From NCBI RefSeq assembly GCF_005885605.1, contig NZ_SZVP01000013.1, forward strand, positions 1 through 64,000: 64,000 nt of DNA, read 5' to 3'. The notes below the pieces were generated by a model. It was not told the origin of the DNA, did no database searches, and saw nothing but the letters and a program-made list of their open reading frames with translations. The position numbers and the translations under genes are program-made. Source of the DNA: Colwellia ponticola (GTDB lineage Bacteria; Pseudomonadota; Gammaproteobacteria; Enterobacterales; Alteromonadaceae). Of this stretch, positions 18,173-52,802 are shown in pieces (the first letter of the stretch is position 1; each line of letters starts with the position of its first letter).

Positions 18173-18271
18173 ATTCTCTTTTGAGAATGAGCATTAAGTA
18201 GAAAAGTTGCTTAGACTTTTAAAAATTAAGCGGTTCTGAATTTAGTCATGTTAGTAACGACTAAATCCTGT

Positions 18272-18347
18272 GTCCCTATCGTCTAGAGGCCTAGGACACC
18301 GCCCTTTCACGGCGGTAACAGGGGTTCGAATCCCCTTAGGGATGCCA
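18272..18347 (+). tRNA. tRNA-Glu(TTC), copy 4
   Basis: Identical to the other copies. It starts 175 bp after copy 3, with a slightly diverged spacer. Confidence 0.97.
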
Positions 18348-18573
18348 CTTATTTATACGTTAACGGTATAATAAAGAGAGCATACAGTTATCTTATTACT
18401 GAAAAATATTATGTTAATAATATTTAAATAAGAAATTTAGAGTTTTATTTTTCAATGATGTTTAATCGTATTGTTGATTAAGTAAATCAGCAGAGTGATC
18501 TGCTAGATAGTTTGAAATGATTTTATATCTACTGCTATTTATCGTTATTAATAGAGTGATTAAATCAATCAGT

Positions 18574-18649
18574 GTCCCTATCGTCTAGAGGCCTAGGACA
18601 CCGCCCTTTCACGGCGGTAACAGGGGTTCGAATCCCCTTAGGGATGCCA
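18574..18649 (+). tRNA. tRNA-Glu(TTC), copy 5
   Basis: Identical to the other copies. Its 226-bp upstream spacer is unrelated to the duplicated ones. A strong terminator follows. Confidence 0.97.
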
Positions 18650-19961: not shown

Positions 19962-19962
19962 G

Positions 19963-20868: not shown

Positions 20869-20875
20869 TAATACC

Positions 20876-20950
20876 AATCCATATAAGAAAGTGATCTCTT
20901 AGCCAGAGTTTAAATGCTTAGAGGCAAGGAATTGATTGTAAGGAATGGTA
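20876..20950 (-). repeat. MITE-like dispersed repeat, partial inverted copy C
   Basis: Read on the minus strand, CCTTGCCTCTAAGC followed by CTCTGGCTAAG parallels the right part of copy A (16159-16190). It starts with ATACCAAT, as at the flank of copy A, and ends at GGTATAAC. It sits inside the prpB-prpC interval. Confidence 0.55.
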
Positions 20951-20961
20951 TAACGTCTGTA

Positions 20962-20986
20962 GTTACTGAGCGACTAGCTCAGTAAC
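20962..20986. other. perfect 10-bp hairpin between prpB and prpC
   Basis: GTTACTGAGC pairs with GCTCAGTAAC around a GACTA loop. No T run follows, so it is not a classical terminator. It could stabilise or be a processing site in the prp message. Confidence 0.55.
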
Positions 20987-21038
20987 CTTGATACAAAAAA
21001 TTATTTGTGATGAATATTATAAAATAAGGAAAAAGATT

Positions 21039-22190
21039 ATGACCGATACAACAGCAGAAAAAACAGTGGCTAGCAAACCAGTAAATACGGCAGGACTTCG
21101 CGGACAAAGCGCCGGTGAAACTGCACTTTGTACCGTAGGTAAATCAGGTTCAGGGTTAACTTACTGTGGTTATGATGTTGCTGACTTAGCTGAAAACGCA
21201 ACGTTTGAAGAAGTGGCTTACCTACTTTTTAATGGCGAATTACCAAACCAAGCGCAATTAGCGGCTTATAAGTCAGCGTTAAAACCAATGCGCGACTTAC
21301 CTGATGCAGTAAAATCGGTATTGAAATTAATTCCTAAAGATACTCATCCTATGGATGTTATGCGAACGGGTTGCTCTATGTTGGGCAATATTGAACCAGA
21401 AAAAGATTTTTCTGAACAAAATCAAGCAGCTAATCGTTTGCTAGCGGCGTTTCCTGCCATTATGTGTTATTGGTATAAATTTTCACATGACGGTGTTGAA
21501 ATTGACTGTATGACCGATGAAGACTCATTAGGTGGCCACTTCTTACGCTTATTAAATCAAGAAGAGCCTTCAGAGCAGCATAAACGCGTGATGGATGTTT
21601 CGTTAATTTTATACGCGGAGCATGAATTTAACGCGTCAACCTTTACCGCTCGTGTTTGTGCATCAACTTTGTCAGATATGTTCTCATGTATTACGGGTGC
21701 TATTGGTACCTTGCGTGGACCATTGCACGGCGGCGCTAATGAAGCGGCGATGGATATGATTGAAAAATTCAAATCACCTACTGATGCTAAAGAGCAAATG
21801 TCTGGTATGTTAGCCCGCAAAGAAAAAATCATGGGCTTTGGTCATGCTATTTATCGCACTTCAGACCCGCGTAATACAGTTATCAAAGCGTGGTCTGAAA
21901 AATTAGCCGCGGAGAATGGTGATACTTCTTTATACGACATTTCAGTCGCGTGTGAAGAATTTATGTGGGATACCAAAAAATTATTCTGTAATGCTGATTT
22001 TTTCCATGCTTCTACTTATAACTATATGGGTATTCCTACCAAGTTATTTACGCCGATTTTTGTTTGTTCACGCTTAACCGGTTGGGCGGCTCACGTGATG
22101 GAGCAACGTGCTAATAACCGTATAATTCGTCCAAGTGCTGATTATACGGGTAGTGAGCCACGTAAGGTTCAGCCTATCTCTGCTAGATAA
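21039..22190 (+). CDS. prpC: 2-methylcitrate synthase
   Basis: Condenses propionyl-CoA with oxaloacetate. The 383-residue citrate-synthase-fold enzyme keeps the PrpC-type N-terminus (NTAGLRGQSAGETALCTVG), GPLHGGANEAAM with the catalytic His, KIMGFGHAIYRTSDPR with the second His, and a late Asp in FCNADFFHAS. The arginine-containing C-terminal NNRIIRPSADYTG is typical. AAGGA (21026-21030) places the start at 21039 rather than the upstream ATA-rich extension. It lies between prpB and acnD in the operon. Confidence 0.96.
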   Translation: MTDTTAEKTVASKPVNTAGLRGQSAGETALCTVGKSGSGLTYCGYDVADLAENATFEEVAYLLFNGELPNQAQLAAYKSALKPMRDLPDAVKSVLKLIPKDTHPMDVMRTGCSMLGNIEPEKDFSEQNQAANRLLAAFPAIMCYWYKFSHDGVEIDCMTDEDSLGGHFLRLLNQEEPSEQHKRVMDVSLILYAEHEFNASTFTARVCASTLSDMFSCITGAIGTLRGPLHGGANEAAMDMIEKFKSPTDAKEQMSGMLARKEKIMGFGHAIYRTSDPRNTVIKAWSEKLAAENGDTSLYDISVACEEFMWDTKKLFCNADFFHASTYNYMGIPTKLFTPIFVCSRLTGWAAHVMEQRANNRIIRPSADYTGSEPRKVQPISAR

Positions 22191-22210
22191 GCAGACTTGG
22201 TATTTGCTCT

Positions 22211-22290
22211 GATTTCGTCGTTGGACCTCAACGCGCATAGTAAACTATGCGTCGTATCGTCCGCCTTGAACTCAAAGCAACTCCCCTCGT
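22211..22290 (-). repeat. hairpin repeat element, copy 1 (minus orientation)
   Basis: Read on the minus strand: CAAGGCG, ten bases, a hairpin (CGCATAGT/ACTATGCG, loop TT), nine bases, then CAACGACG. The same spacing and flanks occur at 25042-25100 and 25237-25294. Located between prpC and acnD. Confidence 0.65.
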
Positions 22291-22306
22291 CTAGACTCGA
22301 TTAATA

Positions 22307-22336
22307 TAAAGGTATTTTTTAATACCTTTATTTTTA
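22307..22336 (+). terminator. terminator or attenuator between prpC and acnD
   Basis: TAAAGGTATT (22307-22316) pairs with AATACCTTTA (22321-22330), loop TTTT, followed by TTTTT. It has an intrinsic-terminator shape inside the operon, 36 bp before acnD, so it could lower acnD-prpF expression. The stem is AT-rich and probably leaky. Confidence 0.5.
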
Positions 22337-22371
22337 ATTATTGTTATTAGAAATATTCACTGGATTAAGTT

Positions 22372-25026: not shown

Positions 25027-25041
25027 ACGATTATTTTCATG

Positions 25042-25100
25042 ACAGCTGCGTTGGTCGTGCTCATGTGTAGGTACACATTGTGCGCGACCGTCTTGCTCTC
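25042..25100 (-). repeat. hairpin repeat element, copy 2 (minus orientation)
   Basis: Read on the minus strand: CAAGACG, ten bases, hairpin ATGTGT/ACACAT, nine bases, then CAACGCAGCT. Same architecture as the copies at 22211 and 25237. Lies just after the acnD stop. Confidence 0.7.
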
Positions 25101-25236
25101 TTATAAAAATAATTCGTTGAATCATCAAACGTAATTAAATAATTTTAACAGTAAGTTAGCGAAGTCATTTAGAAAGATAACTGAGAAAGCTAATTCGCTG
25201 TTTTTCATTAGTTTAAAAATCGCAAAGCAAAAGGTT

Positions 25237-25300
25237 ATTTAGCAAGGCGAATCAGAGAAGCATAGATTTCTATGTGACGTCATTCAACGCAGCTAAATCT
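25237..25300 (+). repeat. hairpin repeat element, copy 3 (plus orientation)
   Basis: CAAGGCG, about eleven bases, hairpin CATAG/CTATG with loop ATTT (25261-25274), ten bases, then CAACGCAGCT (25285-25294). It shares the ten-base CAACGCAGCT tail exactly with copy 2, in opposite orientation. The remainder of the acnD-prpF spacer shows nothing else. Confidence 0.7.
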
Positions 25301-25332
25301 CCTTTTGAGCAGTGAAAACATAAAGGAATACT

Positions 25333-26553
25333 ATGCAATACCAACCACAAATCAAAATACCGGCTACTTATATGCGTGGCGGTACGTCCAAAGGGGTATT
25401 TTTTAATTTAACAGACTTACCCGAATGCTGCCAGGTGCCAGGTGAGTCACGCGATAAGTTGTTATTACGCGTGATCGGTAGCCCAGATCCTTATGGCAAA
25501 CAAACTGATGGAATGGGCGGGGCAACTTCTAGTACCAGTAAAACGGTAATCCTAGCAAAATCAGCGCAAGCCGATCACGATGTTGATTATTTATTTGGTC
25601 AAGTCGCTATTGATAAAGCCTTTGTTGACTGGTCAGGTAATTGTGGCAATTTAACCGCTGCGGTGGGTTCATTTGCGATTATGTCAGGTTTAGTGAGCCC
25701 AGATCGTATTCCTGAAAATGGTGTGTGTATTGTGCGTATTTGGCAGAAAAATATTGCTAAAACTATTATTGCACAAGTTCCTATTACGAACGGTGAAGTA
25801 CAAGAAACCGGTGACTTTGAGCTTGACGGCGTGACCTTTCCTGCCGCTGAAGTACCGGTTGAATTTATTGCACCGGTAGACCCCTCAGAAGCCATGTTCC
25901 CAACGGGAAATGTGGTTGATGAGTTAGCCGTACCTGGTGTAGGTACGTTTACAGCGACGATGATCACTGCAGGTATCCCAACTATTTTCTTAAATGCGGC
26001 AGATATTGGTTATAGCGGCATTGAACTGCAAGACGCGATTAACAATGATGAAGATGCGCTGGCACGTTTTGAAACTATTCGCGCTTATGGCGCTATTAAA
26101 ATGGGTTTAATTAGTCATGTTGAGGAAGCAAAAGCACGCCAACACACGCCAAAAGTTGCTTTTGTGGCACCGGCACAAGACTATGTTACTTCCAGTGGTA
26201 AAAGTGTTGCGGCTAGTAATATAGATTTACACGTGCGCGCGTTATCTATGGGTAAATTACATCATGCGATGATGGGCACAGCAGCGGTTGCTATTGGTAC
26301 GGCGGCAGCTATACCAGGGACTTTGGTCAACTTGGCGGCTTGTCGTACTAAGGCAAATATAGAACCTACTGACGAGTCAGTTACTCAAAACCAAGTAGAG
26401 AGTTCAGTGACCTTTGGTCATCCGTCCGGCACGCTCAAAGTAGGCGCACAAGCGGTAGAAATTGACGGTAAATGGACAGTAAATAAGGTAATAATGAGCC
26501 GAAGTGCTCGGGTACTGATGGAAGGTTGGGTACGGATACCGACTTTATCATAA
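25333..26553 (+). CDS. prpF: 2-methylaconitate cis-trans isomerase PrpF
   Basis: Isomerises the trans-2-methylaconitate made by AcnD to the cis form used by aconitase. The 406-residue protein has a two-domain diaminopimelate-epimerase-like fold. PrpF signatures are IPATYMRGGTSKGVFF at the N-terminus, SPDPYGKQTDGMGGATSSTS, DWSGNCGNLTAAVG (catalytic-pocket Cys) and GHPSGTLKVGA near the C-terminus. AAGGAA precedes the ATG. It is the last gene of the prp cluster and converges on the TonB receptor gene. Confidence 0.95.
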   Translation: MQYQPQIKIPATYMRGGTSKGVFFNLTDLPECCQVPGESRDKLLLRVIGSPDPYGKQTDGMGGATSSTSKTVILAKSAQADHDVDYLFGQVAIDKAFVDWSGNCGNLTAAVGSFAIMSGLVSPDRIPENGVCIVRIWQKNIAKTIIAQVPITNGEVQETGDFELDGVTFPAAEVPVEFIAPVDPSEAMFPTGNVVDELAVPGVGTFTATMITAGIPTIFLNAADIGYSGIELQDAINNDEDALARFETIRAYGAIKMGLISHVEEAKARQHTPKVAFVAPAQDYVTSSGKSVAASNIDLHVRALSMGKLHHAMMGTAAVAIGTAAAIPGTLVNLAACRTKANIEPTDESVTQNQVESSVTFGHPSGTLKVGAQAVEIDGKWTVNKVIMSRSARVLMEGWVRIPTLS

Positions 26554-39461: not shown

Positions 39462-39505
39462 AGGGTCAGGTGTTTTGTTGACGACTTAACAAAACGCCTG
39501 ACCCT
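39462..39505. repeat. 18-bp palindrome with AGGGTCAGG/CCTGACCCT ends (REP-like)
   Basis: The arm at 39462-39479 pairs with 39488-39505; the only deviation is one G-U pair. The loop is eight bases. There is no T run, so it is not a simple terminator. AGGGTCAGG-type ends are, from memory, common in REP-like elements of Alteromonadales. The sequence is unrelated to the TTATCATG palindromes at 0.5 and 2.8 kb. Confidence 0.6.
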
Positions 39506-39549: not shown

Positions 39550-39605
39550 CTATAAAACTATAAAACTATAAAACTATAAAACTATAAAACTATAAAACTA
39601 TAAAA
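39550..39605 (+). repeat. 8-bp tandem repeat (CTATAAAA)7 abutting a start codon
   Basis: Seven perfect CTATAAAA units end two bases before the ATG of the DUF2835 gene, so the array fills the place where promoter spacing and ribosome binding site would be. Eight is not a multiple of three, but the array is non-coding here. Slippage would change spacing rather than frame. Confidence 0.92.
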
Positions 39606-39607
39606 CG

Positions 39608-39823
39608 ATGAAATATTACTTTTCTATTCATATTACCACGACAGAGTTTTTTCCTTATTATCAAGGAAAAGTTCAAAACGTTGTTGTCACCACAACTCAA
39701 GGTATTAAAGTGCAGTTTCCGGCGATGCACTTACGAAAGTACCTAACAGCAAGCGGTATTCAAGGTACCTTTTGTTTGCAAACTCAGCAAAATAAATTTT
39801 TATCGTTAACCAAAATTAAATAA
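39608..39823 (+). CDS. DUF2835 family small protein
   Basis: A 71-residue cytosolic protein of a small gammaproteobacterial family without known function. The sequence follows the DUF2835 pattern: YYFSIHITTTEFFPYYQGK, then VVVTTTQGIKVQFPAMHLRK, a GIQGTFCLQ turn and a terminal KFLSLTKI. It is predicted all-beta, SH3-like in look. There is no ribosome binding site: the eight bases before the ATG are repeat sequence. The message may be leaderless, or initiation may depend on the repeat. Confidence 0.85.
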   Translation: MKYYFSIHITTTEFFPYYQGKVQNVVVTTTQGIKVQFPAMHLRKYLTASGIQGTFCLQTQQNKFLSLTKIK

Positions 39824-40198
39824 TTTTATTATATTTATTTTAAATAGAGTAAAGACTTGAAACGGTGGTCTGACCATTTGGCTTAACGATTTCTTATCGT
39901 AAGCTAAACAAATAAGCGTTATTTCATGAACTTATAAAACAAACACTATTCTATATTTTTTGATTTTCAAACAGTAGTTTTAAACGAAACATTAAAATAC
40001 ACGACTACTTGAATGCAAGTCATTAAAAAATAGCGCTTTAACTCACATCTTTAACGCTTGCTACCTAAGTCAAATGATGTAATTATTGCTGATGTTAGAT
40101 AAATAATATAACAAAAACTAACTTTTGATTACATTCATGCTGATGAACTTAACGTGATATTTTATTTAGCGTTATGTTCTGAACAGGGGAGAGAATAG
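39824..40198. other. upstream region of the DUF1302 module
   Basis: 375 bp with no gene. It contains a palindrome TGGTCTGACCA (39866-39876) and an imperfect hairpin GCTTAACGAT/ATCGTAAGC (39881-39904). Either could be a regulator site or a terminator for the small upstream gene. GGGGAGAG (40187-40194) is the ribosome site of the DUF1302 gene. Confidence 0.45.
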
Positions 40199-42280
40199 AT
40201 GAAAAACAAGCCTCAACATGGCTTTGCCAAAAAACCTTTAGCTATTGGTATTGCTGCTGCGCTTTCAATGACATTATTAACTTCTGTGGTTAATAATGCT
40301 CAAGCAGCAAGATTTGAGTTGGGTGATGTAGAGATCAGTTTTGATTCTACCTTCAGTGTTGGTTCAAGCTGGCGTACCGAAGATAGAAACTGGAATGATA
40401 ATGTCGGTAAATCTAACAATACCAATAATGGTTATGATTTTAGTAATTACTCAATATTCTCACCTTCGCCAACCAAAGAAGATATATGGGCACAAGGCGA
40501 AGGCGGTTACTCTACTAACGGTGATAACGGTAACTTAAATTATAATGCCGGCGAAAGCTTCTCTAAAATATTTAAAGGTGTGCATGAGTTAGACGTTCAC
40601 TATCAAAATGTCGGTATATTCATGCGTGGTATGTATTTTTACGACTTCGCTATGATGGATGATGATAGAGCCGCGTCTAACGTACTTACCGGTGATGTTT
40701 TCGACCCTTGTCGTGATGGTGAAGCCAGAGAGCAAGTATGTAAGGATATTCGTTTACTTGATGCTTATGTTTATGGCGACTTTGAAATCTCCGGTATGCC
40801 TTTTTCAGTACGTGTTGGTGAACAAGTCATTAGTTGGGGTGAAAGTACCTTAATTTCACACGGCATTAGTGAAATTAACCCGGTTGATGTTGCCCGTTTA
40901 CGTGCACCTGGCGCAGAAGTTAAAGAAGCCTTTATTCCGTTTGGTGCGTTGTGGGCGTCTTTAGGTGTTACTGATAACTTTAACGTTGAAATGTTTTATC
41001 AGTACAGCTGGGAAAAAACGATTTTACCGCCACCAGGAAGTTATTTTTCAAATAACGACTTTGCTGGCGACGGCGGCCAATATAATAGCGTGCAGTTAGG
41101 TTTTGGTGGCAGCCCAGATATGAATTTAGATGATCTGATGGAGAGCCTAAACGATATAGGTACTGCGGTTAAAACGGGTAATATAACGCCTGAGCAAGCA
41201 GGTAAAATGTACGCTGCTTATGCAGGTAGTGTCACTTTACGAGCGCCAGGCACTAAAGCTGAAAATGAACCTGAAAACGGTGGCCAATATGGCTTACGTT
41301 TATCGTGGTTTTTACCTGAATTTAATGACACTGAAATTAGTTTATACCATGTCAACTATCATAGTCGCCGACCTATTTTCTCAGGGGTTACTGCTGACTT
41401 TAGTGCGACGTCTATTGGTGGCGATATTGGCTATTTAGCGGCTAATGAAATTAATGAAGGTAACTATACCGAGTTAACTACCTTTTCTCGTGTTGAGCTT
41501 GATTATGTAGAAGACATTAAAATGTATGCGATGAGCTTTAACACCACAGTCGGTAACACGGCAGTGGCGGGTGAAATTAGTTATCGCCAAGATGAACCAT
41601 TACAAATTGATGATGTTGAGTTGTTATTTGCGGCGGTGCCACAACAACTTTATAATTCAGGCAACCCGGCTTACGCTGCTTTAGACGGTGTTTCGCAAAT
41701 GGTTAAAGCTGACGGTTCAGCTTATGGTGCAGGTGAAACGGCCAATGGTTATATCCTATCTGACACCATACAAGCACAAGTGACGTTAACACACTTGTTT
41801 GGGCCAATGTTTGGCGCCAGTCAGTTTGTTGGTTTAGTGGAAGTGGGCGGTATTAATATTAATGATATGCCAGATCAAGATACCTTGCGTTTAAATGGAC
41901 CAGGTACTGCACGTAGTGGTGGCATTGCTTCTGCACCAGGTCTGAACCAAGCCTTACAAGGCGGCGTTGAAACCAACCCGTTCCCAACAGAGTTTGCTTG
42001 GGGCTATCGCGCTATTGCAAAACTTGACTATACCAACGTTGTTGCTGGCATTAACATGTCACCACGTTTAGTGTTTGCACATGATGTTACCGGTATTACG
42101 CCCGATCCATTGTTTATGTTTGTCGAAGATAGAAAGTCAGTGTCGTTAGGCTTAACCTTTGACTATCAAAGCAGTTGGTCAGCAGATGTTACCTATAACA
42201 GTTTCTTCGATGGTGTTGGCACAACGAATCAAATGGAAGATCGTGACTATGTTTCTTTCAGTATCAAATATTCAATCTAA
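40199..42280 (+). CDS. DUF1302 family outer-membrane protein
   Basis: A 693-residue exported protein of unknown function, probably a large outer-membrane beta-barrel. The signal peptide spans about 1-36 (ending NNAQA, then ARFELGDVEISFDST). DUF1302 features are VGSSWRTEDRNW near the start, DAYVYGDFEISGMPFSVRVG, QVISWGESTLISHGISEINP, a long middle region and a terminal strand ending FSIKYSI. First of four same-strand genes (DUF1302, DUF1329, YCF48-like, MMPL) that recur together in marine proteobacteria. FadL-like or lipid-handling roles are suspected by context only. Confidence 0.85.
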   Translation: MKNKPQHGFAKKPLAIGIAAALSMTLLTSVVNNAQAARFELGDVEISFDSTFSVGSSWRTEDRNWNDNVGKSNNTNNGYDFSNYSIFSPSPTKEDIWAQGEGGYSTNGDNGNLNYNAGESFSKIFKGVHELDVHYQNVGIFMRGMYFYDFAMMDDDRAASNVLTGDVFDPCRDGEAREQVCKDIRLLDAYVYGDFEISGMPFSVRVGEQVISWGESTLISHGISEINPVDVARLRAPGAEVKEAFIPFGALWASLGVTDNFNVEMFYQYSWEKTILPPPGSYFSNNDFAGDGGQYNSVQLGFGGSPDMNLDDLMESLNDIGTAVKTGNITPEQAGKMYAAYAGSVTLRAPGTKAENEPENGGQYGLRLSWFLPEFNDTEISLYHVNYHSRRPIFSGVTADFSATSIGGDIGYLAANEINEGNYTELTTFSRVELDYVEDIKMYAMSFNTTVGNTAVAGEISYRQDEPLQIDDVELLFAAVPQQLYNSGNPAYAALDGVSQMVKADGSAYGAGETANGYILSDTIQAQVTLTHLFGPMFGASQFVGLVEVGGININDMPDQDTLRLNGPGTARSGGIASAPGLNQALQGGVETNPFPTEFAWGYRAIAKLDYTNVVAGINMSPRLVFAHDVTGITPDPLFMFVEDRKSVSLGLTFDYQSSWSADVTYNSFFDGVGTTNQMEDRDYVSFSIKYSI

Positions 42281-42295
42281 TTTAAGGCATAACTC

Positions 42296-43669
42296 ATGAG
42301 AAATAACATGAATAAAGTCACATTATTATCATTGGCCATCTCTATGGTCTTATCAACGGGCGCTGTAGCAAAAATATCTGCTGAGCAAACGGCAAAATTA
42401 TCATCAGAACTAACACCGGTTGGCGCAACACGTGCTGGCAATAAAGATGGCTCAATTCCTAAGTGGACGGGTGGTATTACTAAGGCACCTGCTGGTTACA
42501 CGGTAGGTGAGCATCATGTTGACCCTTATCCTGATGATAAAATTCAATTTACTATTACTGCAAGTAATCTTAGCGATTACAAAAACTTGTTAACTCCAGG
42601 TCAAATTAAGTTATTTGAAACCTATCCTGATACTTACAAGATGAATATTTATCAAACACGTCGAAGCGCTTCATACCCTGAGCATGTTTATCAGGCCGTG
42701 AAAGATAATGCTACCCGCGCTGAGCTTGTTCAAGAAGGTAATGGCATTAAACAAGCAGCAGTCGGTATTCCTTTTCCGGTACCGGCAAACGGTTTAGAGG
42801 TTATTTGGAATCATACGCTGCGTTATCGTGGTGAAAGTGTTACTCGACAAGCCGGTCAAGCATCGCCGACATCATCGGGCAGTTTTACCTTTGTTGGTTT
42901 AGATGAAACATTACTGTTACCTTACGGCGTTGAAGGTGCTTCACCTGAAGAGCTAGAGCAAACTAATATTTTGTTTAAATTTAAACAAAAGGTAACAGAG
43001 CCTGCACGTTTAGCCGGTACTGCGTTATTAGTACATGAAACCATGGATCAAATTAAAACTCCTCGACAAGCATGGACCTATAATACGGGTCAACGCCGCG
43101 TTCGCCGTGCGCCAAATGTTGCTTATGATGCACCAGGTACAGCGTCAGATGGTTTAAGAACCACTGATGACTTTGATATGTACAATGGCGCACCAAATCG
43201 CTACAACTGGACATTAAAAGGTAAACAAGAGTTACTGATCCCTTACAATGATTATCGACTGCACAGTAATAAAGTAAAGTATGAAGATATTTTACATGCG
43301 GGTCATATTAATCCTGACTTAGTACGTTATGAAAAACATCGCGTTTGGGTGGTTGAAGCGAACCTTAAAGAAAGTACTCGTCACATCTATAAAAAGCGTG
43401 TTTTCTATATTGACGAAGATAGCTGGCAAGTTGCGGTAACCGATATTTATGATAACCGTGATGAATTGTACCGTGTCGGTGTTGCTCATGTGATCAACTA
43501 TTATGACGTACCAACACTGTGGTCGACACTTGACGTATTCCATGATCTGCAATCACGTCGTTACATTGCCATGGGCTTAGATAACGAAGCGAAAATGTAT
43601 GACTTTACCCAAAAACTTGATGAAGGGGATTTCACGCCGGCGGCATTAAGGCGCGAAGGTCGTAGATAA
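42296..43669 (+). CDS. DUF1329 family exported protein
   Basis: A 457-residue periplasmic protein. The signal peptide lies at about 5-25 (ends GAVA, then KISAEQTAKL). Family blocks include ELTPVGATRAGNKDGSIPKW, NHTLRYRGESVTRQAG, YNTGQRRVRRAPNVAYD and the C-terminal RRYIAMGLDNE. DUF1329 proteins are thought to have a LolA/LolB-like hydrophobic pocket (from memory, unverified), which suits a lipid carrier. The gene is 15 bp after the DUF1302 gene, so translation is likely coupled. An internal ATG at 42308 is an alternative start. A hairpin terminator follows. Confidence 0.88.
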   Translation: MRNNMNKVTLLSLAISMVLSTGAVAKISAEQTAKLSSELTPVGATRAGNKDGSIPKWTGGITKAPAGYTVGEHHVDPYPDDKIQFTITASNLSDYKNLLTPGQIKLFETYPDTYKMNIYQTRRSASYPEHVYQAVKDNATRAELVQEGNGIKQAAVGIPFPVPANGLEVIWNHTLRYRGESVTRQAGQASPTSSGSFTFVGLDETLLLPYGVEGASPEELEQTNILFKFKQKVTEPARLAGTALLVHETMDQIKTPRQAWTYNTGQRRVRRAPNVAYDAPGTASDGLRTTDDFDMYNGAPNRYNWTLKGKQELLIPYNDYRLHSNKVKYEDILHAGHINPDLVRYEKHRVWVVEANLKESTRHIYKKRVFYIDEDSWQVAVTDIYDNRDELYRVGVAHVINYYDVPTLWSTLDVFHDLQSRRYIAMGLDNEAKMYDFTQKLDEGDFTPAALRREGRR

Positions 43670-43681
43670 TCAGTAACAAAG

Positions 43682-43712
43682 AAACGGCTGACAAATGTTA
43701 GCCGTTTTTTTT
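43682..43712 (+). terminator. intrinsic terminator after DUF1329
   Basis: AAACGGCT (43682-43689) pairs with AGCCGTTT (43700-43707), extended by a TGACA/TGTTA pairing, and followed by a T run. It separates the first two module genes from the last two. Confidence 0.85.
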
Positions 43713-43801
43713 AATACTGTGTCATCTTTACTGTTTGATCTGTAGCATTTTAGTTCAGTTCTTTATTTATTTTATTATCAGAAAATTAAAAGAGTAGTGT
43801 T

Positions 43802-44836
43802 ATGCGTTTATTAATTGTTTTCGCAGTAGTTTGCTTTATTTCTTTGCCGTCGGTTCATGCTCAGAGCAAAGCAGCTACTTCGGCCACCACGCCGGCAACG
43901 CAGTCAGTCCTAGCCAGTAAATCTTTGTTATTAGATATTTCACCTCTAGGGGAAGAAAAACTGGTAGCGGTGGGGCAATATGGGCATATATTACTATCAA
44001 GTGATGGTGAAAATTGGCAACAAGCCAATGTGCCTGTACAGGCGACCTTAACCAGAGTGTTTTTTTTAAATGAGCAACTAGGTTGGGCTGTGGGTCACGA
44101 TGCCACCATATTACATAGTCAAGACGGTGGGCTTAATTGGCAAATACAGCAATATTTACCGTCATTGCAAAAACCCCTGTTAGATATTTATTTTAAGGAT
44201 GCACAACAAGGTATTGCCGTTGGTGCTTATGGACAAGTTTTTCGTACTAACGACGGTGGTAGCAGCTGGGAAAGTGAATTTCACCAAGAATTTTTACTCG
44301 CCGATGACGTCGATTATATCAATGACTTAAAAATAGAAGATGAGCAAGCTTATCTTGATGAAATTGCCTTTATTTTACCGCACTTTAACGGTCTAGTTTC
44401 ACATGGCGATAATCTTTTTCTTATCGGTGAAACGGGCTTATTAGCACAAAGTAAAGACTTTGGTTTTACCTGGCAAAAAGTTAACGGCTTTTATCAAGGC
44501 TCTTTCTTTTCATTAGCGAGCACAGGCAAAGGTGATTTTTTAGTTGCCGGACTGCGTGGTCATGTTTTTCGTCGTGCTCAAGAGCAAACTCAGTGGCATG
44601 AAATTAGCACAGACACAACGGCATTATTAAATGATATTGTTGTTGGCAAAGATAATGGTCGTATCTTTATTTTAGGTAATAACGGCGTATTACTTGTTAG
44701 CACTGATGAGGGTAAAAGCTTTACTACAAAAATTCAGCACGATGGTAAAACCTTAATCGCAGGCGTGTGGTTTAAAGGACGTTTAATCGCGGTGTCTGAT
44801 GTCGGTGTTAAAGTAATCAATTTATCGAAAGGTTGA
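43802..44836 (+). CDS. YCF48-like/BNR-repeat exported protein
   Basis: A 344-residue exported protein predicted to be a beta-propeller of the photosystem II assembly factor YCF48/BNR type. The signal peptide ends near 20 (VHAQS). Repeats of the type VGQYGHILLSSDGENWQ, VGHDATILHSQDGGLNWQ, VGAYGQVFRTNDGGSSWE, GETGLLAQSKDFGFTWQ and GNNGVLLVSTDEGKSF are visible. In this genomic setting such proteins accompany MMPL transporters and may be assembly or scaffold factors. It is followed by the MMPL gene at 159 bp. Confidence 0.88.
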   Translation: MRLLIVFAVVCFISLPSVHAQSKAATSATTPATQSVLASKSLLLDISPLGEEKLVAVGQYGHILLSSDGENWQQANVPVQATLTRVFFLNEQLGWAVGHDATILHSQDGGLNWQIQQYLPSLQKPLLDIYFKDAQQGIAVGAYGQVFRTNDGGSSWESEFHQEFLLADDVDYINDLKIEDEQAYLDEIAFILPHFNGLVSHGDNLFLIGETGLLAQSKDFGFTWQKVNGFYQGSFFSLASTGKGDFLVAGLRGHVFRRAQEQTQWHEISTDTTALLNDIVVGKDNGRIFILGNNGVLLVSTDEGKSFTTKIQHDGKTLIAGVWFKGRLIAVSDVGVKVINLSKG

Positions 44837-44995
44837 TTGTCAATTAAGTCATAAGAGACATCCCCAATAAGTATATAACCGTTGAGCCTTAATACATTAT
44901 TTCCCAGGTAATTTTTCTCTGGTAGTTACCACAATGAAGTAATGATGATTGGAATGACATTAAAAAAAATATAATAAAGTTCGGAAAGTATTACT

Positions 44996-47311
44996 ATGAA
45001 AATTTCTCTGGCTAATCGTGTTGAAATAGGCTTATTTCGCCATAAATTTCTGGTGTTAATGTTGTTTGTTATCACCAGCGCTTTCTTTTTGTTTCAAGCA
45101 ACTCAAATTAGACTTGATGCATCATTTACTAAAAATATACCATTAAATCATAGTTATATGAAAACCTATCTAAAGCATAGGGCAAACTTTGGTGGTGCTA
45201 ATAACATTCTTATTTCGGTTTGTGATGCTAATGGAGATATTTTTAATCCAGAATTTTTTAACGCGTTAAAAGGCGTACACGACAAGCTTTTCTTTATTCC
45301 AGGGGTTGATAGAATTCAAGTTAAATCGTTATTTTCTCCGAGTACGCGATTTGTTGAAGTGGTTGAAGACGGTTTTGCCGGTGGTCCGGTTATTCCTGCC
45401 GATTTTCAACCAACAGCCAAAGGCCTTGGCGTTGTTAAAGGTAATATAGAAAAAGCTGGCATTGTTGGAAGTATTGTTTCTGACGATTATAGCTGTGCCA
45501 TGGTAAAAGCGGCTTTATTAGATATAAACCCTGATACGGGTGAAAAATTAGATACCCTTGAAATAGCAGCACAACTAGAAAACGATATTCGTCAAGAGTT
45601 TGAACGTGACAACATCAGTGTCCATATCATTGGTTTTGCTAAAATGGTCGGTGATGTTGCACAAGGCGCTAAAGGCGTGGTGTTGTTCTTTGCATTGGCT
45701 ATCGCTATTACGGCGGTCATGGTTTATATCTTTAGTCACTCAATCCGTTTAACTATTCTCCCTATCTTTTGTTCATTAGTTGCCGTGGTTTGGCAAATGG
45801 GCATGCTGTCAAGCCTAGGTTTTGGCCTTGATCCTATGTCTATTTTGATTCCCTTTTTAGTGTTTGCTATTGGCGTCAGTCATGGCGTACAAATGATTAA
45901 CTCGGTAGTTAAAAAAGTGGCGACAGGGCTAACACCTGCCTCAGCGGCACAAGCGAGTTTTCGCGCCTTATTAATTCCTGGTGGCGTGGCACTAGTGTCT
46001 GACACGGTTGGCTTTTTAACACTACTGTCTATTGATATTGGTATTATTAAAGAGTTAGCTATCACGGCATCTATTGGTGTGGCGATGATTATTCTAACCA
46101 ACCTTATTTTACTGCCTATTTTATTGTCATTTACCAAAATAAAAGTCAGTGCAAAAGTGGGGCAGTTAAGTGAACAAAGTGCGGTTTGGACCGTGATGGC
46201 AAGTTTTGCCAGTAAAGGTCCTGCCAAAGTTATACTCTTTTTTACCGTTATTTTATTTGTAGTGGGTTTTTATAAAGGTCAGGCGTTAAAAATAGGTGAG
46301 TTACATGCCGGCGCACCTGCTTTACATGAATCATCACGTTATAACCAAGATACCTTCTTAATTACCGACAGATATGCCATCAGTGTTGATTATATGTCAG
46401 TCATTATAGAAACAACGCCTAATGCGTGTACCTATTACGACACCATGGCCACGATAGATCGCTTTCAGTGGGAAATGGAAAATATACCAGGCGTGCAATC
46501 AGCGGTAAGTTTATCGTCTATCTCTAAACTGGTAAATGCTGGCTACAACGAGGGTAACCCTAAATGGCGAGTGATCCCGCGTAATCAACAAACCTTAGTG
46601 CAATCTATTGCGCGTGTGCCATCTTCTAGTGGTCTGCTTAATAATGACTGTAGTGTTATGCCGGTTATTCTATTCTTAGAAGATCATAAAGCTAATACCA
46701 TTGATACCGTTGTTGATGCGGTTAAAACTAAAGCGCAAGACTTGGGTAGTGAGCAGGTACAATTTAAGTTGGCATCAGGTCCTGTTGGGGTGATGGCTGC
46801 AACCAATGAAGCGGTAGCAGCAGCGCAGTTACCTATGATGCTTTATGTTTATGGCGCGGTGATTGCACTATGTTTAGTAAGCTTTAGAAGTATTAGAGCA
46901 ACCTTAGTTGTCGTGGTACCTTTGTATGTAGTATCAACCCTTGCCCAGTGGTTAATGACGGCACTGGATATTGGTTTAACAGTATCAACCTTACCTGTTA
47001 TAGCATTAGGTGTTGGTATTGGTGTTGATTACGGTATTTATATCTTATCAACCATGAGCACTAAACTCAAAGAGGGGATGGATGTTCATGATGCTTACCT
47101 TGCGGCCTTAAAAGAACGAGGTAGTGCGGTGCTAATTACTGGCTTAACGTTAGCGATTGGTGTATCGACTTGGTTTTTCTCAGACTTAAAATTCCAAGTC
47201 GATATGGGTATTTTATTGACCTTTATGTTCCTGGTTAATATGTTGGCGGCCATTATTATTTTACCTGCGCTATCCGCTTTTTTATGGCCAAGTAAAAGCA
47301 ATAAGAGATAG
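44996..47311 (+). CDS. MMPL/RND superfamily transporter
   Basis: A 771-residue inner-membrane transporter with twelve expected helices in two MMPL/SSD-like halves. Helix 1 is near 17-35. Large periplasmic loops lie at about 40-215 and 420-600. The membrane motifs are GLDPMSILIPFLVFAIGVSHGVQ-type (GVSHGVQMINS) in the first half and ALGVGIGVDYGIYILS in the second. These contain the Asp/His residues expected in proton relay. Family members move lipids, hopanoids or other hydrophobic compounds across the envelope. Last gene of the DUF1302 module, with a strong terminator downstream. Substrate unknown. Confidence 0.92.
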   Translation: MKISLANRVEIGLFRHKFLVLMLFVITSAFFLFQATQIRLDASFTKNIPLNHSYMKTYLKHRANFGGANNILISVCDANGDIFNPEFFNALKGVHDKLFFIPGVDRIQVKSLFSPSTRFVEVVEDGFAGGPVIPADFQPTAKGLGVVKGNIEKAGIVGSIVSDDYSCAMVKAALLDINPDTGEKLDTLEIAAQLENDIRQEFERDNISVHIIGFAKMVGDVAQGAKGVVLFFALAIAITAVMVYIFSHSIRLTILPIFCSLVAVVWQMGMLSSLGFGLDPMSILIPFLVFAIGVSHGVQMINSVVKKVATGLTPASAAQASFRALLIPGGVALVSDTVGFLTLLSIDIGIIKELAITASIGVAMIILTNLILLPILLSFTKIKVSAKVGQLSEQSAVWTVMASFASKGPAKVILFFTVILFVVGFYKGQALKIGELHAGAPALHESSRYNQDTFLITDRYAISVDYMSVIIETTPNACTYYDTMATIDRFQWEMENIPGVQSAVSLSSISKLVNAGYNEGNPKWRVIPRNQQTLVQSIARVPSSSGLLNNDCSVMPVILFLEDHKANTIDTVVDAVKTKAQDLGSEQVQFKLASGPVGVMAATNEAVAAAQLPMMLYVYGAVIALCLVSFRSIRATLVVVVPLYVVSTLAQWLMTALDIGLTVSTLPVIALGVGIGVDYGIYILSTMSTKLKEGMDVHDAYLAALKERGSAVLITGLTLAIGVSTWFFSDLKFQVDMGILLTFMFLVNMLAAIIILPALSAFLWPSKSNKR

Positions 47312-47356: not shown

Positions 47357-47406
47357 AAAGCACTTAATTAACAACCTCGTTGTATAATTAAGTGCTTTTT
47401 TTTTGC
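47357..47406 (+). terminator. intrinsic terminator after the MMPL gene
   Basis: A long stem, AAAGCACTTAATTA with TAATTAAGTGCTTT, is extended by ACAAC/GTTGT and followed by a run of nine or more T. Confidence 0.92.
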
Positions 47407-47897: not shown

Positions 47898-50800
47898 ATG
47901 GCATCAGTAAATGGTTCTCCTTCGGTTATACTCAGTAATGTCGCGCATATTATTCAGCAGAAAGTTGACAGTAAAACAGCGCCTTTAGTCGAGCAGTTTG
48001 CTCATATCCTTTATGGCAGTATGTCAACGCTAGATCTTGACCATCGTAATGAAAGCGATATGTATGGTGCGGTACTTAGTTTGTGGAGCTCACTTAATGA
48101 ACATAAAGATGATGCGCCTATCATTCATGTTTTTAATCCTTCAGTAAGTAAAAATGGCTGGAAATCTAGTCATACCATTATTGAAGTGATTATTCAGGAT
48201 ATGCCATTTCTAGTAGACTCTATCCGTATTGCCTTAAACCGTTTAGGTTTATCACCGCATTTAATGTTAAATGCCCCTCTTAAAATTATCCGTGATAAAA
48301 AGCACGAGGTGACTAAACTAGCTCCCATTGTTGATAATAAAATTAAAGCAACGTCAGAAGAAACGGTTTTTTTAATTGAAATAGACCGTCAAGCAACCCA
48401 AGACGAGCTAGACGTGATTAAAAGCACTCTATTATCTGTAGTTGAAGATATTCATTTAACCGTCAGTGATTGGCAGCCTATGTTAGCGTGTTTAAATGCA
48501 GTCATTGAAGATGTGAAACAAACCAGCTACCCCGGCAGTAAAAAAGAAAAAGAAGATACCTTACGCTTTTTAAGCTGGGTTGCTGCTAATAACTTCACCT
48601 TAATGGGATATCGCTCATATAATCTCAATGCGGTAAAAGGTGATATTTCACTTGATGCGGACATTGAATCTAGTCTTGGTTTAATGAAAAATTCACAAGG
48701 CTCAGCGCCACTTTTAGTCTCAAGCTTAAGTGAGTCAGGTCGTAAAATAGCCTTGGGTAAAAATCATCTGGTGTTAACCAAAACTAATTCACACTCTCGA
48801 GTACATCGCCCAGCGCAATTAGATTATATTGGTATTAAACGTTTTGATGAGCAAGGTAATGTCATTGGTGAAGCACGTTTTATTGGCCTGTTTGGCTCGG
48901 CTTTTTATACCAGTAGCGTTTTAGACTTACCTTTTATAAACGTTAAAGTAAAAGCAGTTTGTGACGCTTCTCTTTTTGCCAAGGGTACCCATAATTATAA
49001 AACGCTGATTAATATTTTAGAAACGTATCCCAGAGATGAAGTTTTACAGTCGACTGTTGAAGAGCTATTGCATAGCGTAACAGGCATCTTACAAATGCAA
49101 GAACGTGACTATACTGGTTTATTTGTGCGTCGTGATGCTTTTGATCGTTTCTATTCTTGTATGGTTTATGTACCAAGAGAGCGCTACAACACACAATTAC
49201 GCATAGAAACGCAAAAGTTATTACAAACAGTATTTAAGAGTAATGAAGAGGTTGATTTTACTACCTTTTTCTCGGAATCGGTTCATGCAAGAACTCATTA
49301 CATTGTGCAAGTAAATTCAACAAAAGTAGACTTTAACGTGAAAGAAATTGAAAAAAATCTAAATGAAGCGGCACGTAATTGGGACGATAAATTAGTGAGC
49401 GCTTTAGGGGTGCATTACGGTGAAGCAGAAGCAAAAGCATTAAGTCGTAAATATGTTAAATTTCCGCAAGCTTATAAAGATGAGGTGTTACCAGGCTCAG
49501 CCATTGTTGATATAGAAAAGCTTGAAAATATTAGCGCAGATAACAGTTTAGAGATGCTTTTTTATCAACCACTGGAAGAAAAGTCAGATAGTCGCTTTGT
49601 AAAATTAAAGTTATTTCACAAAGGTGATCCCATTCACTTAAGTGATGTACTGCCTATGCTTGAAAACTTTGGTTTACGTGTTATTGGCGAAAGACCTTAT
49701 GAAATTAAAACGACAGAAGAGGAGACTAGTTGGATACTCGATTTTTCAATGTATCTAACGGGTGAAGGTAAGTTTGATATTTATAAAGTTAACACCCTGT
49801 TTCAAGACGCGTTTGCAAAAGTTTGGCATGGCAATCTAGAAGACGATGGCTTTAACCGCTTAATTTTAGGTGCCGGTATTGAAGGACGTGCGGTGTCAGT
49901 ATTACGTGCCTTTGCTAAATATGAACGTCAAATTGCTGGTCGCTTTAGTCAAAGCTATATTGAAAATACTTTCTCGCGCTACCCAGAAATTGCTGAATCA
50001 CTGATCAACTTATTTACGTTACGCTTTGATCCAAAGAGTAAATCAAGTGCAACAGCAAAAGAAAAAGCCACGACTAAGTTATTAGCAGATATTGAAAGTT
50101 CACTTGATAACGTGGCTAACTTAGATGATGACCGTATCATTCGCCGTTTTGTTGAAATGATTAATGCCACTATTCGTACTAACTACTTTCAGGCAGACCC
50201 TGTTACGGGTGATAAACCCTATATTTCATTTAAAATATTGCCAGAATTAATTAGTGAAATGCCACAACCAGTGCCTAAATTTGAGATTTTTGTTTATTCG
50301 CCGCAAATTGAAGGGGTACATTTACGTGGCGGTAAAGTGGCTCGTGGTGGCTTACGTTGGTCTGACAGAAGTGAAGATTTTCGCACTGAAGTGCTTGGCT
50401 TAGTGAAAGCCCAGCAAGTAAAAAATAGTGTGATTGTCCCTGTTGGCGCTAAAGGTGGTTTTGTGTGTAAACAACTACCTGAAGGCTCTCGCCAAGAAAT
50501 ATTTGAAGCAGGAAAAGCGTGTTACCGCACCTTTATTCGCGCGTTATTAGATATCACCGACAATATTGTGGCCGGTGAGATAGTGCCGCCTAAAGACGTA
50601 GTACGTTTAGATGAAGATGATGCTTATTTAGTTGTTGCTGCCGACAAAGGGACGGCAACATTCTCTGATGTTGCTAATGCTATTTCTGATGAATATAACT
50701 TTTGGTTAGGTGATGCTTTCGCCTCAGGCGGTAGTGTTGGTTATGATCATAAAGCGATGGGGATTACCGCAAAAGGCGCATGGGAGTCGGTTAAACGTCA

Positions 50801-52802
50801 TTTCAGAGAAATGGATATTGATTGTCAAACGACCGATTTTACCTGTGTTGCTATTGGTGATATGGCTGGTGATGTATTTGGTAATGGTATGTTGTTATCA
50901 AAGCATACTCGGTTACAAGCAGCCTTTAACCATATGCATATTTTTATAGATCCAAATCCTGAAGCAGCAAGCTCTCATACAGAGCGCAAACGTTTATTTA
51001 ATTTACCAGGTTGCTCATGGGACGATTACAATAAAGCCCTTATCTCTGACGGCGGAGGGGTATTTAGTCGTCATGATAAAGCCATTAAATTAACGCCAGA
51101 AATTAAAAAAATGATTGGTACCCAAAAGCAAAGCATGGCACCTAGCGATTTAATACAAGCACTATTATCAATGAAAGTTGATTTACTGTGGAATGGTGGT
51201 ATTGGTACCTATGTTAAAGGCAGCAAAGAAACTGATCTTGAAGTCGGTGATAGAGCGAACGATACGTTACGTATTAATGGCGTTGATTTACAAGCTAAGG
51301 TTGTCGGCGAAGGGGGTAACTTAGGTTTTACCCAATTAGGGCGTATTGAATATGCGACTAATCGCGGCCGTATTAATACCGACGCCGTCGATAACGCCGG
51401 TGGTGTTGACTGCTCAGATAACGAAGTGAATATTAAAATATTACTCAACACCTTAGTGAAAAATGGTGATTTAACGGTTAAGCAACGTAATAAACTGCTT
51501 TATGATATGACCAAGGAAGTCGGTGATATTGTTATTGAAGATTGTTACCGCCAAACTCACTCGTTATCTATTACGGCAATGCGTGGCGTTAATCAATTAA
51601 AAGAGCAAGTGCGCTTTATTCAAGAATTAGAGCGTTCAGGTAAATTAAACCGAAGTTTAGAGTTTATCCCTGATGATGAAGAAATCGCTGAGAGGTTATC
51701 ACAAGGTCGAGGATTAACTCGTCCAGAGTTAGCTGTACTGCTTGCTTATAGTAAAATGGTACTAAAAGATGATTTAGTCCATGCTGAAATTACCGATAAC
51801 CCATACCATAACCGTTTACTTTTTGAGGCGTTCCCTGCACAGTTACGTGAAAAATATCAAACAGAAATGCAGCAGCATCCGCTACGTGCCGAAATTATTG
51901 CGACTAAACTTGCCAATAAAATTGGTAACGACATGGGCTTTAATTTTGTTAACCGTATGCAAGAAGAAACAGGCGCTAGTGTTGCTGAAATAGCTAACTG
52001 TTATACCATTGCTAGCGCGGTGTTTGAGCTAGGGACTTTTTGGAATGAAATCGTCGCGTTAGATAATCAAATCTCAACCGCTATTCAAACAGAAATGTTA
52101 TTCCAGTATCGCAGAACAGTGCGTCGAGTAACTCGTTGGTTCTTACGTCACCGTAATAAATCACTGCCTTTAGCTGAGTCTATTGCGTTGTATCAACCTA
52201 CCTTTACTATTTTGTCAGAAAAATTAGCAGACTTTGTTGTTAGTGATGAAATTAATGCGTTAACACGCATTGCCAGTGATCTAATCGACGCGAATGTGCC
52301 TACTGCTATTGCGACACGAGTTGCCCAATTAAGTACGTTATTTTCAACGATGGATATTGCTGAAATCGCACATGAAAATAGTTGTACTGTTGAGCAAGCG
52401 GCTAGTTTGTACTTTAAACTAGGTGCTCGTCTTGAGTTACATTGGTTCCTTGACCAAATTACTCGTCAACCCGTAGCTAATCATTGGCAAGCGCTGGCGC
52501 GTGCCTCATTTAGAGAAGAGCTTGATTGGCAACAACGTTCACTAACATCGGTGGTGTTACGTTGTCAATGTGATGCTCAATTTACAGAATTAGATCAGTT
52601 GATTAGTGAGTGGATTAACACTAATGAGCAACCACTTGAGCGCTGGAAACACATTTTAGCTGATTTTAAAATCGGGCAAACCCATGACTTTGCTAAGTTC
52701 TCAGTTGCCTTACGTGAGTTAATGTTATTGAGCCTAAATTGCCAATCTGTTACACCTAAGAAAAGCAAAAAAAAGGGTAATAATAACGCAACAGTAAGTT
52801 AA
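47898..52802 (+). CDS. gdhB: NAD-specific glutamate dehydrogenase, 180-kDa type
   Basis: A 1634-residue enzyme of the large GDH class that oxidises glutamate to 2-oxoglutarate and ammonia with NAD, mainly in catabolism. N-terminal ACT-like regulatory segments occupy about 1-700. The catalytic core is near 800-1200 with VHLRGGKVARGGLRWSDRSE, VIVPVGAKGGFVCKQL (catalytic Lys), GDMAGDVFGNGML and GEGGNLGFTQLGRIEYA. The C-terminal helical region completes the normal length. It is followed by a terminator and then pyrD. It fits an amino-acid-consuming heterotroph, together with the peptidases in the window. Confidence 0.96.
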   Translation: MASVNGSPSVILSNVAHIIQQKVDSKTAPLVEQFAHILYGSMSTLDLDHRNESDMYGAVLSLWSSLNEHKDDAPIIHVFNPSVSKNGWKSSHTIIEVIIQDMPFLVDSIRIALNRLGLSPHLMLNAPLKIIRDKKHEVTKLAPIVDNKIKATSEETVFLIEIDRQATQDELDVIKSTLLSVVEDIHLTVSDWQPMLACLNAVIEDVKQTSYPGSKKEKEDTLRFLSWVAANNFTLMGYRSYNLNAVKGDISLDADIESSLGLMKNSQGSAPLLVSSLSESGRKIALGKNHLVLTKTNSHSRVHRPAQLDYIGIKRFDEQGNVIGEARFIGLFGSAFYTSSVLDLPFINVKVKAVCDASLFAKGTHNYKTLINILETYPRDEVLQSTVEELLHSVTGILQMQERDYTGLFVRRDAFDRFYSCMVYVPRERYNTQLRIETQKLLQTVFKSNEEVDFTTFFSESVHARTHYIVQVNSTKVDFNVKEIEKNLNEAARNWDDKLVSALGVHYGEAEAKALSRKYVKFPQAYKDEVLPGSAIVDIEKLENISADNSLEMLFYQPLEEKSDSRFVKLKLFHKGDPIHLSDVLPMLENFGLRVIGERPYEIKTTEEETSWILDFSMYLTGEGKFDIYKVNTLFQDAFAKVWHGNLEDDGFNRLILGAGIEGRAVSVLRAFAKYERQIAGRFSQSYIENTFSRYPEIAESLINLFTLRFDPKSKSSATAKEKATTKLLADIESSLDNVANLDDDRIIRRFVEMINATIRTNYFQADPVTGDKPYISFKILPELISEMPQPVPKFEIFVYSPQIEGVHLRGGKVARGGLRWSDRSEDFRTEVLGLVKAQQVKNSVIVPVGAKGGFVCKQLPEGSRQEIFEAGKACYRTFIRALLDITDNIVAGEIVPPKDVVRLDEDDAYLVVAADKGTATFSDVANAISDEYNFWLGDAFASGGSVGYDHKAMGITAKGAWESVKRHFREMDIDCQTTDFTCVAIGDMAGDVFGNGMLLSKHTRLQAAFNHMHIFIDPNPEAASSHTERKRLFNLPGCSWDDYNKALISDGGGVFSRHDKAIKLTPEIKKMIGTQKQSMAPSDLIQALLSMKVDLLWNGGIGTYVKGSKETDLEVGDRANDTLRINGVDLQAKVVGEGGNLGFTQLGRIEYATNRGRINTDAVDNAGGVDCSDNEVNIKILLNTLVKNGDLTVKQRNKLLYDMTKEVGDIVIEDCYRQTHSLSITAMRGVNQLKEQVRFIQELERSGKLNRSLEFIPDDEEIAERLSQGRGLTRPELAVLLAYSKMVLKDDLVHAEITDNPYHNRLLFEAFPAQLREKYQTEMQQHPLRAEIIATKLANKIGNDMGFNFVNRMQEETGASVAEIANCYTIASAVFELGTFWNEIVALDNQISTAIQTEMLFQYRRTVRRVTRWFLRHRNKSLPLAESIALYQPTFTILSEKLADFVVSDEINALTRIASDLIDANVPTAIATRVAQLSTLFSTMDIAEIAHENSCTVEQAASLYFKLGARLELHWFLDQITRQPVANHWQALARASFREELDWQQRSLTSVVLRCQCDAQFTELDQLISEWINTNEQPLERWKHILADFKIGQTHDFAKFSVALRELMLLSLNCQSVTPKKSKKKGNNNATVS

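Follow-up and report, generated by a model that had tools for sequence, protein, structure and literature searches.

The question raised by this locus is what a row of four envelope genes carries, and in which direction. The genes lie at positions 40,199 to 47,311 of the window, by which the whole 64,000-nucleotide (nt) stretch analysed here is meant (contig NZ_SZVP01000013.1, positions 1 to 64,000, assembly GCF_005885605.1 of Colwellia ponticola), and are referred to as A (DUF1302), B (DUF1329), C (YCF48-like), and D (MMPL) of the Colwellia cassette. The initial annotation, made from the sequence alone, had taken them for a trans-envelope pathway of unknown substrate for hydrophobic compounds, with B as the carrier and A as the port. 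Our best explanation, of moderate confidence, is that these genes, as part of the PsrA fatty-acid degradation regulon, take up long-chain fatty acids (and perhaps simple esters) by a chain that does not need FadL. The computed evidence comprises gene order, protein families, predicted folds, a site shared with fatty-acid genes, and the lack of a FadL match. Judged by its order, folds, and predicted regulon, the cassette belongs to fatty-acid utilisation. According to excerpts of the respective papers, FadL was still called in 2022 the sole known protein for Gram-negative long-chain fatty-acid uptake (PMC9496633), and VolA is depicted as feeding FadL in V. cholerae (PMC12208996). The C. ponticola genome encodes FadB, FadA, FadD, and a VolA-type phospholipase, gave no FadL match, and carries the cassette under the same predicted operator; if our explanation is true, the cassette stands in the place of FadL downstream of VolA. 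Two DUF families would thereby become a concrete and cheaply testable uptake hypothesis, which also bears on the published efflux reading of a related system, AmeABCD. The four genes are as follows:

40199..42280, + strand: gene A, predicted DUF1302 outer-membrane barrel; 693 amino acids (aa); PF06980 at 546 bits (cut-off 23.2); signal-peptide-like start by eye
42296..43669, + strand: gene B, predicted DUF1329 LolA-fold periplasmic carrier; 457 aa; PF07044 at 527 bits and LolA_like PF17131 at 41 bits; signal-peptide-like start by eye
43802..44836, + strand: gene C, YCF48-like (BNR repeat), probably periplasmic; 344 aa; PSII_BNR/YCF48 PF14870 at 76 bits
44996..47311, + strand: gene D, MMPL / HAE3-like resistance-nodulation-division (RND) transporter; 771 aa; MMPL PF03176 at 80 bits

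The open reading frames (ORFs) and Pfam matches agree with the order, common strand, and families that had been proposed, and the close coupling of A and B is exact at 15 nt; the B–C and C–D gaps measure 132 and 159 nt. Genome-wide profile searches return a single DUF1302 match and a single DUF1329 match, and D is the top MMPL match at 64.9 bits, the next scoring 35.4. The best NCBIfam match of D is HAE3 TIGR00921 (149 bits, below the model cut-off of 351.9). D also resembles MmpL/HpnN/NPC1-type proteins, in that a PDB search with its profile hits segments of MmpL3/4/5, HpnN, and NPC1-related chains; the HpnN model TIGR03480 gives 56 bits, far from its cut-off of 752. The residues S295-H296 and D678-Y679 of D are invariant across 22 aligned homologues and, by their position in the two RND repeats, are candidate proton-relay residues.

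The lead to the substrate comes from the region upstream of A, where two elements are found:

39967..39982, no strand assigned: predicted PsrA-like operator TCAAACAGTAGTTTTA, the top matrix site of the 64-kb window
40058..40086, + strand: promoter-like conserved block TTGCTA-N17-AATTAT, from the genus upstream alignment, boxes assigned by eye; absent from the sites given by a generic scan

All 22 genus loci, those of the window and of 21 relatives, have the palindrome AAAC-N4-GTTT ahead of gene A, 104–106 nt before a conserved ATGATG block whose distance to the start codon is 125–192 nt, and each of the 22 genus copies checked has TNAAACNNNNGTTTNA upstream of A. This pattern, derived solely from the cassette upstream region, finds 18 sites in the C. 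ponticola genome, compared with five for the backward control. Seven of the 18 lie deep within ORFs; the 11 others include that of the cassette, and eight of the remaining ten precede fatty-acid-use genes. These ten TNAAACNNNNGTTTNA sites are placed as follows:

before fadBA; FadB at 1139 bits, FadA seen as a 229-residue piece clipped by the stretch end, at 398 bits
before fadD, overlapping the last codons of the preceding hydrolase ORF; FadD at 909 bits (cut-off 884)
two sites, before two acyl-CoA dehydrogenases; domains above their cut-offs
two sites, between etfBA and the gene for electron transfer flavoprotein (ETF) ubiquinone oxidoreductase (ETF-QO); ETF-QO domain above its cut-off, ETF subunits named from matches below curated cut-offs
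at the VolA/Pla-1 phospholipase gene, divergent from a short-chain dehydrogenase/reductase (SDR) gene; 931 bits (cut-off 384)
before psrA; NF053516 at 310.5 bits (cut-off 300)
by an alpha/beta hydrolase gene
by a 141-aa ORF

We take the palindrome to be the PsrA site from its place before psrA and from the PsrA consensus, and because the site is common to the cassette, psrA, and the fad genes, the cassette falls within the predicted PsrA (fatty-acid degradation) regulon. PsrA would bind at the cassette operator, and the cassette appears to be co-switched with the fatty-acid degradation genes. As excerpts of two papers state, PsrA regulates fatty-acid degradation in Shewanella and other gammaproteobacteria (PMC3223726, PMC5343134). 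With a matrix of fatty-acid sites, the cassette site ranks first in the window (17.8, the next 14.8); the matrix was built from eight own-genome sites found via the cassette-derived pattern and is not wholly independent, whereas the path from that pattern to the fad genes is free of this circularity. Two other probes and one other regulator were dropped. The first probe, AAACGCTAGTTT with one mismatch, was too weak (33 own-genome hits vs. 25 for its control). The C. ponticola genome has a single copy of the 17-mer AAACNNNNGTTTTAAAC, which lies upstream of A, and 32 of the 37 genus genomes contain this 17-mer; it was abandoned as a regulon probe, the palindromic core alone being informative. 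MetJ control has been discussed for a Kangiella DUF1302 gene, but other Alteromonad homologues are without metboxes (PMC3228920).

The reach of the site was examined in 80 named loci, the best 80 of 588 by similarity to B. At a score of at least 12 within 400 nt upstream, it precedes A in 17 of 71 of these loci, namely in all seven Colwelliaceae, one Ferrimonas, two Shewanella, five Pseudomonas, one Atopomonas, and one Niveispirillum. Controls at the same score gave 0/32 for pepN, 0/70 for B, 3/63 for C, 0/62 for D, 2/31 for gdhB, and 13/1600 for random windows, and no scored plasmid copy reaches 12. The predicted PsrA-like site is thus firm for Colwelliaceae and plausible for some pseudomonads; most of the other relatives tested have a weak site or none. 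Of the 37 genus genomes, 35 have PsrA itself, and G030 (76% complete) and G004 (93%) gave no match; the presence of PsrA alone does not predict the site, as G042, G049, and G051 have PsrA-like proteins and no good site upstream of A (L052, L032, and L055).

The second line of evidence is the lack of the usual port. The genome, a draft of 238 contigs listed as 100% complete, has no match to PF03349 (FadL); the same profile finds the E. coli control, and a control outer-membrane family, BamA-type POTRA domains, is present. Two surveys, small and of related members, covered 37 genomes of the genus and 24 order-level families. In the genus, FadB is found in 37/37 genomes and full-length DUF1329 in 36/37 (the exception is G030), and FadL in 13/37 (ten clear, two divergent, and one broken by a stop). 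The FadL genes of 12 of these 13 genomes, one each and with the broken G005 copy left out, have no site scoring at least 12 within 600 nt upstream; among eight FadL genes of other families there is one, at 18.2 (G044, without full-length DUF1329). In the family survey, a match above 400 bits was counted as full-length DUF1329 and an E-value of 1e-200 or better as FadB; families with weak LolA-like matches, and G039 with its distant DUF1329, were scored as lacking DUF1329, and the weak FadL of G039 as FadL. All eight families with full-length DUF1329 have FadB, and all seven without FadB lack DUF1329 (p = 0.054). The 17 FadB-positive families divide into four with DUF1329 only, four with both, eight with FadL only, and one with neither. 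Among the families with DUF1329 and without FadL, G042 and G049 have the whole cassette and G048 has A–B only (G052 left out). Taken together, predicted co-regulation with fatty-acid degradation and the lack of a FadL match in C. ponticola indicate that the cassette is probably a route of fatty-acid uptake.

Predicted structures lend shape to such a route. Sequence searches of solved structures yielded nothing convincing for A or B. The model of A (mean pLDDT, the predicted local distance difference test score, of 88.3) is a barrel whose nearest folds are Occ/OprD porins, MOMP, and AlgE, with Z about 21–23 over 300–357 residues at 7–12% identity, and A is accordingly modelled as a porin-like barrel; Occ barrels have 18 strands. 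Identification of A as FadL was rejected, since its sole Pfam family is DUF1302; no FadL-type structure stands among the 50 nearest structures listed for A. The proposed likeness to FadL lies in the job, outer-membrane entry of long-chain fatty acids; the cassette differs in that A matches DUF1302 only and in adding a periplasmic carrier and an RND protein. The model of B (mean pLDDT 88.0) has the LolA/LolB half-barrel fold: its near folds are LolA3 9tp6 and the DUF1329 structures 4z48 and 3bk5 (Z 18–21 over 230–236 residues), with LolB and LolA next, and against 9tp6 it reaches Z 20.6 over 236 residues, a root-mean-square deviation of 2.6, and a TM-score of 0.84 by target length. Unlike LolA and LolB, B has about 160 extra N-terminal residues (signal peptide included) outside the matched part. 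The carrier and port roles put forward by the initial annotation therefore gain from the modelled LolA-fold B and barrel A, and its interpretation is partly supported; the module is already described, and a lead to its substrate comes from the predicted fatty-acid degradation regulon.

The chain may be pictured as follows. A VolA-type phospholipase/lipase of the same regulon would free fatty acids, which the DUF1302 barrel A would let through the outer membrane; the LolA-fold B would shield and ferry them across the periplasm; and the MMPL protein D, with C as its presumed partner, would receive them at the inner membrane, where the proton gradient would drive delivery to FadD and subsequent degradation by FadB/FadA.

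The cassette is already a known kind, as three publications, cited here from excerpts, make clear. The ameABCD genes of Castellaniella defragrans, read by their authors as a monoterpene exporter, have the same order and corresponding families: DUF1302, DUF1329/LolA, COG4447 (photosystem II assembly-factor-like), and HAE3 RND (PMC6394551); C was judged here to be of the COG4447 type by its PSII_BNR match, and D is HAE3-like by a match below the cut-off of that model. The ameABCD genes lie in a monoterpene island and are up-regulated on alpha-phellandrene (PMC6394551), whereas the Colwellia cassette lies in a pepN-ABCD-gdhB locus with a PsrA-like site and no monoterpene-metabolism neighbourhood, the locus order being nhaC-like, pepN, DUF2835, A-B-C-D, gdhB. 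In P. putida, PP_0765/PP_0766 and PP_2018/PP_2019 are reported to be essential on Tween 20, a fatty-acid ester; DUF1302, DUF1329, a periplasmic protein, and a transporter are likewise combined, in two separate loci, with weak predicted B–A and B–D contacts and a strong C–D contact, and the authors suggest a new transport system, the excerpt naming no regulator or fatty-acid substrate (PMC10866462). In a regulon study of Betaproteobacteria, the four families form operons controlled by regulators of aromatic-compound use and are named as possible solvent-stress proteins (PMC6449761). As first worded, the label of a module of unknown substrate is thus not supported, the cassette being in print and a fatty-acid lead existing; what is new here is that lead, namely the PsrA-like site and the lack of a FadL match. 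In the open-licence literature searched, neither DUF1302 nor the cassette was connected with PsrA or with the absence of FadL, a weak negative; Thompson 2020 (random barcode transposon sequencing of P. putida) may discuss a fatty-acid role.

The direction of transport is where this explanation is most exposed, and the main rival is efflux. A tolerance pump would export toxic hydrophobics (free fatty acids, monoterpenes, or aromatics) from the inner membrane via B and A, with PsrA inducing it as protection. Outward transport is the usual mode of RND proteins, the superfamily of D is one of efflux proteins, and an exporter, AlgE, is among the near folds of A. Export is, moreover, the sole direction argued from experiment in the literature examined. 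As given in the excerpt, the physiological study of AmeABCD argues for it: deletion lowered monoterpene tolerance, the mutant on acetate equalled the wild type up to 5 mM limonene and not above, and mutant cells treated with carbonyl cyanide m-chlorophenylhydrazone (CCCP) accumulated slightly more Nile Red (PMC6394551). The naming of the four families as possible solvent-stress proteins points the same way (PMC6449761). The same mutant, however, grew poorly on the hydrocarbons, while its growth on perillyl alcohol, aldehyde, and acid matched that of the wild type (PMC6394551), a pattern for which poor uptake would also account; an ameB transposon mutant, reported to be poor on perillic acid too, tempers that explanation (PMC6394551). 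Further observations weigh against uptake under PsrA. Complementarity between FadL and DUF1329 among families runs in the expected direction and is not significant (p = 0.13), and the FadB-positive family with neither (G060) must use another route or take up no fatty acids. Outside Colwelliaceae, three of 24 pepN-ABCD-gdhB loci reach site score 12, so that PsrA-type control is not general; G004 has DUF1329 and the site and no PsrA match; and the site lies about 115 nt upstream of the transcription start expected from the by-eye boxes, which is odd for a simple repressor. Uptake is nonetheless favoured because the predicted operator is common to the lipase, FadD, and beta-oxidation genes, the usual port was not found, and the P. 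putida relatives are needed on a fatty-acid ester, on which their mutants fail (PMC10866462). Among the identified regulon genes (a few site-adjoining ORFs left out) there is no efflux gene. We therefore regard efflux as unlikely, albeit the strongest of the alternatives.

Conservation of the four-gene order, which had been set beforehand as a test of the module, was found in two sets of loci, both picked by DUF1329 similarity and hence leaning to close relatives. The four genes stand together on one strand, in the order A-B-C-D, in 29 of the 40 regions fetched for DUF1329 genes from relatives in the genus and order, and in 63 of the 80 named loci, from several phyla by titles, more than chance would explain. 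Direct flanking by pepN and gdhB occurs in 31 of the 80, in genera including Colwellia, Litorilituus, Rheinheimera, Pseudoalteromonas, Alteromonas, Shewanella, and Ferrimonas, and pepN-ABCD-gdhB is a core locus in the genus Colwellia: the whole cassette is present in 22/22 genus genomes whose core locus was fetched, out of 36 carrying full-length DUF1329. The other 17 named loci comprise seven with A–B alone in at least 19 kb, six of them pseudomonads (L235, L241, L242, L249, L251, L258, and L259), one with B alone (L212), and nine short or partial. A–B without C–D in the fetched stretch is seen also in L045, L060, and L062, and A–B is divergent from C–D in L057–L059. Two terminators bound the halves of the unit:

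43682..43712, + strand: intrinsic terminator in the B–C gap; hairpin of -14.5 kcal/mol and eight T
47358..47404, + strand: intrinsic terminator 3′ of D, closing the unit before gdhB; hairpin of -18.1 kcal/mol and nine T

The first had been proposed by the initial annotation and is borne out by its hairpin and T run, which are present even though the generic scan does not list it. A hairpin and T run stand in the B–C gap of 21/21 genus relatives inspected, and if, as a loose criterion, any hairpin of -8 kcal/mol or stronger followed by four T is counted, 57 of 86 B–C gaps carry one; the kept terminator fits unequal expression of A–B and C–D.

Mobile copies were examined in 10 of 42 plasmid records with a DUF1329 match. 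Members of all four families are present in each of the ten, with a single C annotated as hypothetical; the order is A-B-C-D in eight, B-A-C-D in one, and C–D, transposase, A–B in one, and most lie near genes annotated by name as catabolic for aromatic or acyl compounds. On plasmid NZ_CP017294.1 of Pseudomonas aeruginosa (L072), pepN is followed by an insertion sequence and the complete cassette, so that a portion of the chromosomal surroundings has apparently been transferred. Extra divergent cassettes, with D 39–45% identical, are found in the relatives L056, L057, L059, and L064, next to genes for an AraC regulator, glucose-methanol-choline (GMC) oxidoreductase, aldehyde dehydrogenase, acyl-CoA ligase, or thiolase; in L056, gene A of the extra cassette is preceded, at 81 nt, by a strong PsrA-like site. 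In L065–L068, very divergent DUF1329 genes (~25% identity) lie by C-like and D-like genes in another arrangement.

These neighbourhoods bear on a second alternative, envelope lipid housekeeping, in which the cassette would shuttle endogenous phospholipid, or products of its breakdown, from one membrane to the other and PsrA control would mirror acyl-chain turnover, for example in the cold. The core locus sits in a conserved neighbourhood rather than a catabolic island, B has a predicted LolA fold, and the terminator parts A–B from C–D, all of which suit such a role; the catabolic-named neighbours of most plasmid copies, and the acyl-CoA ligase, aldehyde dehydrogenase, GMC oxidoreductase, or thiolase genes beside the paralogous cassettes of relatives, speak against it, and we consider it distinctly less probable than efflux. 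That the four genes are mere neighbours, A–B serving one pathway and C–D another, might be read from the conserved B–C terminator, the loci with A–B and no C–D in the fetched stretch, and the divergent arrangement in L057–L059, yet it is very improbable given the contiguity of A-B-C-D in most named loci and the shared phenotype and predicted contacts of the separate P. putida pairs in the excerpt (PMC10866462).

The uptake explanation can be widened, tentatively and with slightly less than even confidence, to the four families as a whole. They would constitute a second, FadL-independent Gram-negative route for long-chain fatty acids, in which a porin-like barrel serves as the port, a LolA-fold protein as the ferry, and an RND protein driven by protons as the receiver, in the manner of NPC2 and NPC1 running inward; under PsrA control, the route could take over from FadL in Colwellia, and plasmid and island copies would be specialised in substrate, for example for terpenes or aromatics.

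Several minor features of the window were also recorded. Between pepN and A sits a small DUF2835 gene (39608–39823; PF11197, 87 bits), directly 5′ of which about seven tandem copies of the unit ctataaaa occupy 39550–39606; just past pepN, an inverted repeat (39462–39505) with 18-nt arms and one mismatch is perhaps a small mobile element. The large gene 3′ of the cassette, gdhB (47898–52802), encodes an NAD-glutamate dehydrogenase with no obvious functional link to it. Farther away, a GntR/FCD regulator, a phosphoenolpyruvate-mutase/isocitrate-lyase-type enzyme, citrate synthase, aconitase, and PrpF follow in series at 19257–26550, which looks like a 2-methylcitrate (propionate) cycle cluster, and six clustered tRNA genes lie at 17520–18646, five of them with equal score.

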